Shown here: positions 7,741 to 13,565 of the stretch, in pieces | Numbering within the stretch: the first letter of the stretch is position 1 | How the letters are laid out: each line of letters opens with the position of its first letter | DNA from: a virus | IMG/VR virus record: IMGVR_UViG_3300031801_000895 | Coordinates: 1 to 21,149 of that record | Reading direction: 5' to 3' (one strand) | Length of the DNA stretch: 21,149 nt | The notes under the pieces: model-generated | What the model saw: the letters and a program-made list of their open reading frames with translations, nothing else | The model's database searches: none | What the model was told of the DNA's origin: nothing | Translations under genes and position numbers: made by a program

Positions 7741-9420
7741 TTAGAATTGGAGGTCTTCGATGTCTTCGAGGCTGTTGCGTTCTTCCGCCCATTCCTGCTC
7801 CAGGTAGCCCCCGATCTCGGCTTCTGACGCGGAGAACTGTTCTCGTCCATCTTTGATGAGAGCCTTTCCTCGGGATCCGAAGCAGGGGGATACGCTACCG
7901 ACGAAGTAGAAGGTTTCTATAGCGCGGGTGACGGCGACGTAACCGATGTTCATCTCTTGGGCTCGTTCCCAAGGTTTGTCCGCAAGCGGATGGGGAATCA
8001 GTTCGGGGGCGAGTAGGAAGACGCGGTTTGCTTCGAGCCCCTTCGCCCGGTGGACCGACGATAACCGGATGCTGTGTTCGGGGTTGTCGTCGGCGAAGAG
8101 GAGTTCGAGTTTCGTTTTCAAGACGGGTACGTCCTTGCAGGGTTCCATGATGACACGGAGACAGTCGCACTTGTCGTTTAGGGCGATCACCCTAGACGCG
8201 GGGGCCTTGCGGGCTTGGAGTCGCTCTTGCTCTTGGGTTTGCCAAGCGGTTAGGTTTGTCTCCAGGTCTAGGATCTTGCCGGAACTGGACAGCCTTTCGA
8301 CTAGCTTAATGAGCCCCTCCCCGATGTCGCGGCCTTGCATGAATGCACGGCGACCGTCGCCAAAGAAGCGGTAGATGGTGTCGACTAGTGGGGCGTTGCA
8401 TCGGCACAGGAACATATCTCCTGGCTTCGCGATCTTGACCGCTGTGGCGTAGTCTATGACGTTTACTCCTCCTCTCGGGGCGTCGGCCATCGGTTCGATG
8501 TCGGGTACCAAGATTTGAGCCATCGCGATGACAGTCTTTGGGCAACGTCGACACACAGTGAGGGGGAGAATGTCCAGACCCCGCGACGATGCCTTGAGGG
8601 TCTTGGTCGCTCGGGGGATCGCTTCGGCATCTGCTCCGCGAAATGCGTAGATGCTTTGGCGGGTGTCGCCTACGACAACGAGCCGATCCCCGCACTTCTG
8701 GACAAGGTTTTGCTGACACTCGTTTAGGTCTTGGTATTCGTCGACACACAGCAGGTCGTGTCTGTCCGAACTGAGTCCCAAAGCGTACGGCCAGTAAATC
8801 ATGTCGTCAAAGTCGATGATGTTCCAGTCGTCGAGGTACAAGGATGCGTAGACGATCTGGCAAACGATCTCCCACAGCATGTCTTTTGACCTCGTCCAAG
8901 TGACGCTGTGATACTCCGACAAGTCGTCCATTGATTGCTCTAACGCTGCCGGTACTGCCTTGTCGGGGGTCCACTTGCTGGGCAGAAGTAGCCCTGTGTT
9001 TTTGAACAGGCTTACCATCTGGGCGATCGCGGGACGCTCGCCCGCCTTCCATGCCCAGCGGTCACGCTTTCCAAAGTTGGGGCCAACCACTTGGTCTAGG
9101 ATGTCATATGTCTTGTCCTGCTGGGGAGAGCCGACGCCTTCGTAGTTGTCGCGGATGATCTTGAAACCGAGACTGTGGAGCGTTCGGCATTGGACACCGT
9201 GCGGTACCTTGCTGCTCAGTTCCTTGGCGATGGATTTGTTGAAGGCACAAAACAGGATGCTTCTCTCCTTCGGAACCTTCTTCAAGCCTTCGACGATGGT
9301 GAATGTTTTGCCGGTACCTGCTCTGGCCGAGATGAGCAGGTGCTTGTCCGACTTTCGCATGGCGGTCCAGATGGCCTTCTGCTGCGGACTGCCGACAATT
9401 CGTTTCGCTGCGTACGACAT
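7741..9420 (-). CDS. UvrD/PcrA-type superfamily 1 DNA helicase
   Basis: A 559-residue helicase. Motifs in order: Q-motif SPQQKAIW near 11-18, Walker A SARAGTGKT at 31-39, DEYQD at 227-231, GDTRQSIYAFRGAD at 251-264, VHRAKGLE near 456-463 and YVAVTRA at 494-500. These are diagnostic of UvrD/Rep/PcrA 3'-5' helicases. The ATG at 9420 is preferred over in-frame codons up to 9603 because GGGAGAG precedes it, the Q-motif follows within a dozen residues, and the longer version would run through the terminator hairpin at 9460-9517. At 559 residues it is shorter than cellular UvrD (about 720). It is the first large gene of the replication block. Confidence 0.94.
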   Translation of the reverse strand: MSYAAKRIVGSPQQKAIWTAMRKSDKHLLISARAGTGKTFTIVEGLKKVPKERSILFCAFNKSIAKELSSKVPHGVQCRTLHSLGFKIIRDNYEGVGSPQQDKTYDILDQVVGPNFGKRDRWAWKAGERPAIAQMVSLFKNTGLLLPSKWTPDKAVPAALEQSMDDLSEYHSVTWTRSKDMLWEIVCQIVYASLYLDDWNIIDFDDMIYWPYALGLSSDRHDLLCVDEYQDLNECQQNLVQKCGDRLVVVGDTRQSIYAFRGADAEAIPRATKTLKASSRGLDILPLTVCRRCPKTVIAMAQILVPDIEPMADAPRGGVNVIDYATAVKIAKPGDMFLCRCNAPLVDTIYRFFGDGRRAFMQGRDIGEGLIKLVERLSSSGKILDLETNLTAWQTQEQERLQARKAPASRVIALNDKCDCLRVIMEPCKDVPVLKTKLELLFADDNPEHSIRLSSVHRAKGLEANRVFLLAPELIPHPLADKPWERAQEMNIGYVAVTRAIETFYFVGSVSPCFGSRGKALIKDGREQFSASEAEIGGYLEQEWAEERNSLEDIEDLQF

Positions 9421-9459
9421 GATGTACTCTCCCGTTACGGTTTGGGATTGGTTGGATAG

Positions 9460-11077: not shown

Positions 11078-11088
11078 TAGCAATGATC

Positions 11089-11359
11089 CCACATACACTC
11101 TCCAGCGAGGTTAGTTATCGTGACCTAGTTGACCAGCGTACTTGTGAGATTGCAAAAGTCTTTGTGGTTGTGCGCGCTTGCAACGTATCGTCTGAAATGC
11201 TGATTATTCGTTCTTCTGTCGGTACTGATCTATCATCTGGCCAGCCGATCCAAATCCAACGACCGATATCTGACGAGCGGAAATTCGTACGTAGTTTGCG
11301 TGCTGTTTTTATTTTCGTCATAGGAGAGTCCTTTGTGCTGTGCTGGAGAGTGTATGTGG
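11089..11359. repeat. 18-bp perfect inverted repeat flanking a small gene
   Basis: CCACATACACTCTCCAGC occurs at 11089-11106 on the plus strand and, without mismatch, at 11342-11359 on the minus strand. It brackets the gene at 11115-11321 as a 271-base unit. The left arm lies only 12 bases from the repeat arm of the neighbouring gene. Confidence 0.85.
11115..11321 (-). CDS. Small basic protein of unknown function, first gene after the leftward promoter
   Basis: A 68-residue protein starting MTKIKTARKLRTNFRSSDIG, with a central IGRWIWIGWPDD and a C-terminal SISDDTLQARTTTKTFAISQ. ATG 11321 is chosen over an in-frame codon at 11384 because AAAGGA lies just upstream and the longer version would run through the inverted repeat. 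No family is recognised; it could be a small regulator or host-takeover protein, by position only. It is bracketed by a perfect 18-bp inverted repeat and is the first coding region downstream of the promoter at 11905-11934. Confidence 0.6.
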   Translation of the reverse strand: MTKIKTARKLRTNFRSSDIGRWIWIGWPDDRSVPTEERIISISDDTLQARTTTKTFAISQVRWSTRSR

Positions 11360-11401
11360 AACCACCACGCTGCTCTGTATCCATTGCGTTTATTTCAACG
11401 A

Positions 11402-11802
11402 CCGTGCCGCGAGGCGTTTTCAGGATTTCTTACATGGCATGGCGAGCAGGCACGCCTTGTGGGGCGTTCGTGATTCCACAGCATCCGACAGGGTCTTCAT
11501 CGTATGGGTGGCGATTCTTCCTGGCATGGCGCGAGCCGTTTTCAGCCGTCCCATCATGCCGTCAACGAATATGGCGCAAACCGTTTTCAACTCGTTGGGG
11601 ATTCCGTAGGGGGGTAAGGAAGATGCTCCTCAGATGAACCCGTTTCATCGGTTATCGGGCTAGAGACCCGGCCGACTTAATCGGATACGTTTGAGATGGC
11701 TGCTGTGATACCACCGTAGGCATTTCACACGGCTATGGTCGCGCTGACCACCATCATAGGTCGTCTGACCTGCGCCACATGGTTCTGCGAACCGTTTTCA
11801 GA
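11402..11802 (+). repeat. Four copies of a CCGTTTTCA-containing repeat
   Basis: The core CGTTTTCA lies at 11415-11422, 11537-11544, 11582-11589 and 11793-11800, all in the same orientation. The left flanks are alike: CCGCGAGG, GGCGCGAGC, GGCGCAAAC and CTGCGAAC, giving the consensus GGCGCGAACCGTTTTCA. The spacing is irregular (122, 45 and 211 bases), so this is not a tandem array or CRISPR. The copies lie in the untranslated leader of the leftward message. Confidence 0.7.
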
Positions 11803-11831: not shown

Positions 11832-11904
11832 GGGCAGCCCGCTGAGGCCAGTTCGTCGGCCTGTCCTGACTACCCGGTGCCGGTATCCATACCGTACAGT
11901 ATTC

Positions 11905-11934
11905 ATTGTACCGGTTAGATATTCTGGTTGTCAA
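11905..11934 (-). promoter_or_regulatory. Strong sigma70-type promoter for the leftward operon
   Basis: On the minus strand: -35 TTGACA (11934-11929, perfect), an 18-base spacer, -10 TACAAT (11910-11905, 5 of 6). Transcription would start near 11898 and run through a leader of about 575 nt to the first gene at 11321. It is the best promoter I see for the leftward replication block. Confidence 0.8.
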
Positions 11935-11945
11935 TCCCGATTGAC
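11930..11945. promoter_or_regulatory. Operator-like dyad over the leftward -35 box
   Basis: GTCAAT-CCCG-ATTGAC is a perfect 6-bp inverted repeat with a 4-base centre. It overlaps the -35 hexamer of the leftward promoter and is followed by a second small dyad TTCCGGGAA. This is where a repressor would compete with RNA polymerase; no repressor gene is identified in the window. Confidence 0.55.
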
Positions 11946-12026
11946 CATTCCGGGAAACTATTTTAGGTGTACAGACGTTCACCTGAGCTGGGGCTCATGA
12001 AACGAGCTGAACGCTTGTCGTGACGG

Positions 12027-12064
12027 TTGCATTTTGGTCGCATTTTGGTTGCACGTAATGCAAC
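12027..12064 (+). repeat. 11-bp helically phased direct repeats plus hairpin
   Basis: TTGCATTTTGG, TCGCATTTTGG and a partial TTGCA follow head to tail at 12027-12053 with an 11-base period, about one helical turn. The last unit begins the hairpin GTTGCA-CGTAA-TGCAAC (12048-12064). It lies just upstream of the rightward promoter and fits an activator or repressor array. Confidence 0.65.
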
Positions 12065-12079
12065 TCGCTGCTGAACGGT

Positions 12080-12108
12080 TAGACACTGGCCAGTCTGGGA
12101 GGTATGAT
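12080..12108 (+). promoter_or_regulatory. Sigma70-type promoter for the rightward operon
   Basis: -35 TAGACA (12080-12085, 5 of 6), a 17-base spacer, -10 TATGAT (12103-12108, 5 of 6). The spacer begins inside a perfect 10-bp palindrome ACTGGCCAGT (12085-12094), a likely operator. The start would be near 12115, about 35 bases before the first gene. Confidence 0.75.
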
Positions 12109-12149
12109 AAAGCAGGGAGCAGGAACGGGAATAACCTCCTAGGAATACA

Positions 12150-12617
12150 ATGGCTAAACGACAACTGCAAACGGCCAAGGCAGCGGTGGCGATTGCCCAG
12201 CTTGGCGGAATCGAGAAGACCCCGGATCCTCCCTCCCGCGTCGATTACGTTCCAAGGACAAAGGGCCAGACTAGTGGGCTCGGGATATGCATGTTCTGGT
12301 CGGCGATGTTCAAAGCGAACGGAGCGTTGCCGAAGACAAAGAAGATGACGGATGAGGAGATCAAGCGGAAGGTGATTGGTGAGTTTCCTGCGGAGAACCA
12401 GCCTCCGAGGACCCAGAGTTTTTTGGGGAAGCTGGGGGAGGTTGGGCAAAAGGGGACTGTAACCGTCAACGCTCAACGTATCATGTATAACAATGGGAAG
12501 CTTACTTCTGGCAACGTACCGGACAAGGTTAGCGTTCGGTACAACGAGGATGGGGAGGTGGTTAATGGCCGGACAGGGAAAGTTCACAGGCGGACCACGG
12601 AAGGGTCAGAGAACTGA
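12150..12617 (+). CDS. Protein of unknown function, first gene of the rightward operon
   Basis: A 155-residue basic protein that I do not recognise. It opens MAKRQLQTAKAAVAIAQLGG (helical), has a middle part LGICMFWSAMFKANGALPKT, then KMTDEEIKRKVIGEFP, and a C-terminal part rich in Asn, Gly and Lys. The start ATG 12150 has AGGA upstream and lies about 35 bases after a good promoter. It overlaps the next gene by 53 bases, so the two are probably translated together. Being promoter-proximal and divergent from the replication operon, it could be a regulator, but no helix-turn-helix is obvious and no function should be assumed. Confidence 0.75.
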   Translation: MAKRQLQTAKAAVAIAQLGGIEKTPDPPSRVDYVPRTKGQTSGLGICMFWSAMFKANGALPKTKKMTDEEIKRKVIGEFPAENQPPRTQSFLGKLGEVGQKGTVTVNAQRIMYNNGKLTSGNVPDKVSVRYNEDGEVVNGRTGKVHRRTTEGSEN

Positions 12618-13110
12618 ATACAAGGAGATCGCGTTCAAGTCGATCCATGAAGCCCGATGGGCTGCTTTCTTTGACTCCCTCAATATCGATTGGGAGTACG
12701 AGCCGGGGTGGTACGGCGATTACTTGCCCGACTTCTACCTGCCGGATTTCGACGAGTTCGTCGAGGTCAAGCCGCTGGGTTGGGAGACGCGGGTGGGCTC
12801 GTCCGACATTTGTTGGTTGAAGCTGCGCGAGGGGATCAAGCGGCTTAAGGGCGACTTGGTTCTGGTCTGTGGGTTGCCTATCTTCGATCCTAATGGAGGC
12901 ATCTGGAAGTTCTTTTGGGCAGGTCGGGTTAAACTTCAAGGCTGGGCCGGGGGAGGGAAGCCTTCTCTGAAAGAAAAAGGACTCCAACCGGGCCGGGGTT
13001 ATGTTCGCGGACTGACCGGCCGCGCCTTGCTTGGTAAGAAGATCCAGTGGCGGATTAGCTTGCGGGGCGAACATCAGTTCAACCAGAATGCGACCATACT
13101 TCATTATTGA
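12565..13110 (+). CDS. PD-(D/E)XK endonuclease-like protein
   Basis: A 181-residue protein. FKSIHEARWAAFFDSL (Glu29), then WEYEP (Glu45), YLPDFYLPDF (Asp56) and FVEVKP (Glu67, Lys69) form the E...D...E-x-K signature of small PD-(D/E)XK nucleases of the TnsA/VSR/phage-endonuclease type. ATG 12565 is chosen for GGGAGGTGG upstream and because the signature follows; longer in-frame versions start inside the preceding gene without a ribosome site. The C-terminal third (from about residue 100) is glycine- and basic-rich and may contact DNA. It would cut or nick DNA in recombination, packaging or host-genome attack; which is unknown. Confidence 0.78.
   Translation: MAGQGKFTGGPRKGQRTEYKEIAFKSIHEARWAAFFDSLNIDWEYEPGWYGDYLPDFYLPDFDEFVEVKPLGWETRVGSSDICWLKLREGIKRLKGDLVLVCGLPIFDPNGGIWKFFWAGRVKLQGWAGGGKPSLKEKGLQPGRGYVRGLTGRALLGKKIQWRISLRGEHQFNQNATILHY
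12965..12977 (+). repeat. Dispersed 13-bp motif, copy 5 (variant)
   Basis: CTCTGAAAGAAAA, 10 of 13 to consensus, on the sense strand of the rightward nuclease gene (frame SLKEKG). Confidence 0.5.
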
Positions 13111-13124
13111 GTGGAGGGTTTGAC

Positions 13125-13565
13125 GTGGCGGTGATGACGCAAGCAACCGACAAAGCTAGTCTTGCCTTGTTGAAGAAGTACGGGTATCGCGCGGACATCG
13201 TGGAGCGGTGGGTGTCTGGGAAGCGGTACGACTTCTGCGGCTTTGGCGATATCATCGCTTTCCGCAGTGTGGCTTGTGATGAGTTGCGCACGCGGCTGGG
13301 AGCGATTGACTTTAGCTTTGACGGAACACTGTGCGTACAGACATGCTCACGTGGGTCGGTTAACGCGCATGTTGAGAAGGTGACGGAGGGAAGGCCGAGA
13401 CATGCGTTGATGGATTGGTTGGAGTGCAAGGGGAATCGCTTCGAGGTGTGGGGGTGGACTGGTGGAGGGTTGGCGAGAGTCCAGAGGGTTAGCTTGTGTG
13501 GTGGAGAGTTCTTTGCGTTCGACAACTCCGAGCTTGCTGTCTTCGGTTTTGATGTCCCGAATTAA
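13125..13565 (+). CDS. Predicted nuclease-like protein, GTG start
   Basis: A 146-residue protein. RADIVERWVSGKRYDFCGFGDIIAF followed by TLCVQTCSRGSVNAHVEKV and a closing NRFEVWGW resembles a phage/bacterial group of predicted PD-(D/E)XK-fold proteins with a GDlla...vQvT core (here Asp42 and Gln72). Gln in place of Glu occurs in some members of that fold. This is recalled resemblance, not a test. GTG 13125 is chosen for GGAGG seven bases upstream; a TTG at 13107 and an ATG at 13134 are also in frame. The stop codon TAA adjoins repeat element C. It is the last gene of the rightward operon. Confidence 0.55.
   Translation: MAVMTQATDKASLALLKKYGYRADIVERWVSGKRYDFCGFGDIIAFRSVACDELRTRLGAIDFSFDGTLCVQTCSRGSVNAHVEKVTEGRPRHALMDWLECKGNRFEVWGWTGGGLARVQRVSLCGGEFFAFDNSELAVFGFDVPN

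Follow-up and report, generated by a model that had tools for sequence, protein, structure and literature searches.

The 765-bp intergenic stretch that separates two divergent gene units in the window (a linear fragment of 21,149 bp, the whole of the IMG/VR record) is probably the divergent early promoter region of a tailed phage, read by the RNA polymerase of the host, and would not be a bistable switch. The divergent arrangement is conserved in a group of related contigs, in which the genes on the two sides are exchanged relative to the window, and the promoters may be tuned by a further factor. The preliminary description had taken the region for a phage decision switch or an early/late switch. 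A divergent control region with a conserved arrangement does exist, but neither kind of switch found support, and both are unlikely because no recognisable repressor is encoded on either flank, the two promoters have no operator in common and neither of them reads the late genes.

Results

Gene layout

Leftward genes fill the right part of the window (21149 to 13739), among them the portal (phrog_113) and a glycosyltransferase gene, and a second leftward operon occupies the left part (11321 to 1). A rightward trio of genes (12150–13565) lies between them, and the promoter region is the gap between this trio and the left operon. The left operon consists of small genes together with those for a UvrD-type helicase, UDG, a nuclease of the DUF3799/exonuclease VIII type, Sak4, PolA, a DUF932 protein and primase. 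The late genes are read from neither promoter, and the rightward trio converges on them, a layout that does not fit the proposed early/late switch. The third-position GC skew of the + strand is positive throughout the window and increases from 0.01–0.44 in the left genes to 0.40–0.65 in the long late genes; the step falls across the gap, with the coding strand unchanged.

A DNA similarity search against 50,697 phage records gave no match to the window. Single-sequence look-ups, which detect close relatives only, also gave no match, either in IMG/VR (p155, nuclease, PolA and portal) or, for p155, in genomes.

Table 1. Features in and around the divergent promoter region, with positions in the window.
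Feature	Position	Strand	Remarks
UvrD-type helicase	7741..9426	-	on the opposite side of the divergent promoter region in relatives
27-bp RNA stem bracketing the 68-residue ORF	11080..11368 (11368-11342 with 11106-11080)	-	longest stem in the leftward RNA of the window
68-residue ORF, doubtful gene	11115..11321	-	coding score -0.08 bits/codon; no relatives
Four direct copies of the 20-nt motif RTGGCGCGARCCGTTTTCAR	11404, 11526, 11571, 11782 (11404..11801)	+	in the leader of the leftward transcript
Leftward promoter, TTGACA-18-TACAAT	11905..11934	-	11/12; first base expected near 11898
Dyad GTCAAT-CCCG-ATTGAC over the leftward -35 box	11930..11945		exact; single copy in the window
Phased array GTTGCA/GTCGCA/GTTGCA with inverted TGCAAC, 11-bp steps	12025..12064		upstream of the rightward -35 box
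Rightward promoter, TAGACA-17-TATGAT	12080..12108	+	10/12; first base expected near 12115
Palindrome ACTGGCCAGT in the rightward spacer	12085..12094		exact
p155, conserved protein family	12150..12617	+	homologues in eight IMG/VR contigs, 40-46% in seven and weak in the other
Nuclease related to Holliday-junction-resolvase-type families	12565..13110	+	phrog_21138 1e-15, phrog_9019 7e-9
146-residue orphan, third gene of the rightward unit	13125..13565	+	no relatives found

Promoters, dyads and phased repeat

Both promoters claimed in the preliminary description are present, back to back, and as a pair they are beyond chance, a divergent pair of equal quality occurring in 0.2% of shuffles of the 765-bp stretch. 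Three sites scoring at least 10/12 are found in the whole window, both divergent promoters included, where chance would give 0.91 sites at this level and 0.07 at 11/12 or better. From their sequences, both promoters are predicted to be active, and early in timing. A third promoter, identical to the leftward one in hexamers and spacing (TTGACA-18-TACAAT, 16126 to 16097 on the - strand), lies within the late region and precedes the glycosyltransferase gene.

Each promoter also carries a dyad, as had been described. Both dyads are exact, but their number is not beyond chance: perfect 6-bp dyads with loops of up to 8 occur at 0.64 per 269 bp in the window, and about 0.26 palindromes of the 5-0-5 type are expected per 269 bp (4^-5 per position). 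The two sequences are unrelated to each other. No operator common to both promoters was found in the window, the -35 dyad being present once and the other palindrome being unrelated to it, and CTGGCCAG recurs only at 11237.

The 11-bp phased repeat reported between the promoters is real and far beyond chance. Its half-sites GTYGCA at 12026, 12037 and 12048 are followed by the inverted TGCAAC at 12059, in steps of exactly 11 bp. Sixteen of 18 positions match at period 11 over 12025–12053, the best period-11 stretch of the whole window, and a value above 14 was reached in 0 of 300 shuffles. After the promoters, this is the strongest element of the region. It lies about 53–90 bp upstream of the expected rightward start, a position that an activator or a wrapping protein could occupy, and its regularity hints at a binding factor.

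Leader of the leftward transcript

The products encoded on either side had been named as natural candidates for the regulator. This stands in part for p155, which is a conserved family (see below), but the 68-residue ORF is a poor candidate. About 577 nt lie between its first codon and the expected leftward start, and its coding score compares with 0.2 to 0.6 bits per codon for most leftward genes, so it is not a secure first product. The training set of the coding score is biased to leftward genes, and the low scores of the rightward trio therefore mean little.

The 27-bp RNA stem around this ORF is uninterrupted, and its 18 inner pairs are all Watson–Crick. The DNA repeat has five mismatches; each is a G-U pair once transcribed leftward, and none would pair in RNA of the opposite strand. 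Such a pattern suggests that the stem works as RNA in the leftward transcript, for example in RNase III processing, and speaks against transposon ends. A mobile element around the 68-residue ORF was considered and rejected; the inverted repeat, searched as an 18-mer, has no copy in IMG/VR.

The four direct copies of the 20-nt motif score 28–30, with the next best site at 11, and the motif occurs nowhere else in the window. No RNA family was matched. Neither the leader taken in its entirety (z -0.8) nor the start of the rightward transcript shows unusual structure. The stem and the 20-nt repeats may be the more unusual part of the locus.

Related contigs and exchange of the flanking genes

The real relatives were reached only with an alignment of helicases, which brought in 80 IMG/VR loci. 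Two of these, L015 and L029, also encode relatives of the portal (44% and 36%). Eight related loci were found in all (L015, L029 and L099 to L104), and they apparently form an undescribed phage group with the phage of the window. An ORF with a run of about 60 serines lies beside the late genes in one of them (L029:13119-13631).

A p155-family gene is divergent from a UvrD-type helicase gene in all seven relatives that carry both; the eighth, L104, gave no helicase match in the stretch covered. The p155 operon of the relatives opens with a Lys-rich ORF of 55–80 residues and has p155 in second place, except in L029, where p155 comes first. It is followed in L015 by a Holliday-junction resolvase gene (phrog_1770, E=8e-22), and by the same type of gene, as judged by sequence likeness, in L099, L101, L102 and L103. 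The next genes are UDG (found in L029, L099, L100 and L101), exonuclease, Sak4, a p226-like gene, PolA and primase. The replication operon of the relatives is headed by p155 and the resolvase, and the helicase stands across the promoter region from them, directed at the late genes.

The order UDG-exonuclease-Sak4-p226-PolA-primase is collinear between window and relatives, and the window is reversed at the head of this operon: the helicase comes first, and p155 faces the late genes together with a different nuclease, of the phrog_21138/phrog_9019 type. Helicase and UDG are separated by only 10 nt in the window, and the p155 and nuclease genes overlap, so the exchanged order looks like that of genuine operons. 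An inversion of the cassette made up of p155, the promoter region and the helicase would be the simplest explanation of the exchange. The nucleases beside p155 differ in type (12565-13110 in the window, L015:18-494 in the relative), suggesting that one resolvase-type enzyme has been replaced by another. In phages of Rhizobium, Ruminococcus and Vibrio, the neighbours of the window's type of nuclease do not include p155.

The promoter region is shorter in the relatives, with a gap of 156–226 bp. The pattern TTGN3-N17-TANNCT, which was set after inspecting the gaps, is present in five of six independent gaps, 11–66 nt before the first gene on the p155 side, and shuffled sets never reached three of six. 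L103 has instead TTGACA-17-AATAAT (11/12) and an opposing TTGACA-17-TAGTAT, with both -35 boxes inside a perfect dyad, TGTCAAACC-N9-GGTTTGACA. Apart from this contig, promoters on the helicase side score no better than shuffles. The leftward promoter of the window resembles that of L029 beyond the hexamers (TTGACAACC....ATC.AACCG.TACA); this likeness is the best of 12 comparisons (p=0.012) and is not significant after correction. The phased array was not seen in the relatives. Judged on these sequences, a divergent, putatively early promoter region is conserved within the phage group, with a conserved promoter on the p155 side and a weak one on the helicase side. Two anonymous promoters are thereby recognised as part of a conserved control region in what seems to be an undescribed phage group, and the exchange of helicase and p155 across it is a case in which the rearrangement of regulatory cassettes during phage evolution can be tested.

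The p155 family

The homologues of p155 in related contigs show that it is not an orphan. One homologue is encoded in L015 (44%, E=5e-29), with a weaker one in L029 (E=0.004); a search with an alignment of three rows, the L029 protein among them, gave six further contigs with homologues of 40–43%. The shared core reads GLGI..FW..LF..NE.LPK.KKMT..E...VR.EFP...SVN..R.LYNKG...P..ISFRYNE.G. Between L099 and L100, the gene has 30 synonymous and 5 non-synonymous codon changes, which identifies it as a real gene under purifying selection. Matches by tblastn in Kozie, SKA49 and BUCT548 (E of 5 to 7) were rejected as weak, gapped and covering no shared core.

No significant match was found between p155 and Pfam families, HTH families among them, or solved structures, and no HTH family matched any of the flanking proteins, in agreement with the preliminary description. 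A PHROG whose function is not described (phrog_28737) weakly matches six of the nine members (best E=7e-4). The structure model, made with one sequence as input, has a pLDDT of 36, and neither it nor the model made in the same way for the 68-residue ORF is usable. Three helices and then a hairpin are one possible reading of the conserved core. A similar EFP...YR motif may be present in other phage proteins, which we take as a lead only. The family always adjoins the promoter region, is absent from Pfam and the PDB, and is unnamed in PHROGs. As a factor tuning the promoters, p155 is only a candidate; if it binds DNA of the promoter region, it would represent a new type of regulator.

Integrase and repressor genes

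Tyrosine integrase (PF00589) and serine recombinase (PF00239) were absent from the nine records, i.e., the window and eight related contigs of 12–57 kb (332 kb); the records are fragments, so such genes could be outlying. HTH_3 (PF01381) was above the cut-off in none of these same fragments, and both PF00589 and PF01381 were detected in each of 14 control genomes. Coming from fragments, the result is strong evidence, though not final, that these phages have no integrase and no repressor of this type.

Discussion

Role of the promoter region

The reading that we consider probable is that of early promoters on which a host sigma-70-type RNA polymerase would act in both directions. On infection, the leftward promoter would give a long leader and then the replication and recombination operon, with the small genes, helicase, UDG, exonuclease, Sak4, PolA and primase as its products. 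The rightward promoter would give p155, the resolvase-type nuclease and the 146-residue protein, in a unit whose far end is turned towards the late genes. If the promoters are tuned, the factor responsible would sit at the phased GTTGCA array or at the -35 dyad. The exchange of genes between the two sides would have come about most simply by inversion.

Regulation of any kind is a further step, and a region in which p155 or a partner binds the phased array, the -35 dyad or both, represses or activates one promoter and so times early expression is somewhat unlikely. It would account for p155 being the only protein always encoded beside the promoter region, for an array far beyond chance placed upstream of the rightward start, and for a core that may fold as three helices and a hairpin. 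However, p155 has no significant match to an HTH family or a solved structure, the array is not seen in the relatives, and p155 always accompanies a resolvase, UDG and other DNA enzymes, so that a role in recombination fits as well. The bolder proposal, which we regard as doubtful, would make p155 the first member of a new family of DNA-binding phage regulators, taking the part of a classical repressor at the divergent promoters; the promoter cassette would have been flipped together with its flanking genes from phage to phage, which would place p155 at the head of the replication operon in some and the helicase in others. A replication origin formed by the repeats and the leader, and primed or activated by the promoters, is less probable again. 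The four direct repeats, found nowhere else in the window, the lower G+C around 10.5–12 kb, the step in third-position GC skew (0.01–0.44 to 0.40–0.65) and the adjoining replication operon all suggest it, but the skew changes in size and not in sign, the repeats are not tandem (spacings of 122, 45 and 211) and the relatives have only about 160–230 bp in the gap. An origin would be compatible with the promoters and does not exclude them.

Two readings are very improbable. Consensus matches alone prove nothing and the dyads are at chance level, as expected if the sequences had no promoter activity, but the 0.07 sites of 11/12 expected in the window, the 0.2% of shuffles with a comparable pair, the location between two divergent operons and the conservation in relatives all speak against coincidence. 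A lysis-lysogeny decision, with its repressor outside or beside the promoters, is suggested by back-to-back promoters with dyads, which resemble those of temperate switches such as that of phage 13 (PMC8516035). Against it are the nine records, fragments as they are, without integrase or HTH_3 above the cut-off, the missing common operator, flanks that encode no recognisable repressor, and the DNA-metabolism genes that make up both flanking operons in the relatives.

Comparison with known systems

The 20-nt repeats of the leader resemble the stoperators of Cluster A mycobacteriophages in being several same-strand copies downstream of an early promoter (PMC9283540). Stoperators occur across the genome, and a known repressor binds them (PMC9283540), whereas the four copies in the window are confined to the leader and have no known repressor. 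With the CI/Cro-type switch of S. aureus phage 13 (PMC8516035), the window shares back-to-back promoters between divergent operons and dyads near the -35 boxes. It differs from that switch in having no recognisable flanking repressor gene, no common operators and no integrase in the fragments covered, and in that both of its operons are DNA-metabolism units.

Lytic tailed phages have plain divergent early regions, in which near-consensus sigma-70 promoters lie in one gap and replication genes are read outward from it. The window agrees with these in its near-consensus promoters, its single gap and its outward-reading replication genes. Unlike them, it has a long structured leader on one side, an array of phased half-sites upstream of the promoter on the other, and flanking genes that are exchanged with respect to its relatives.
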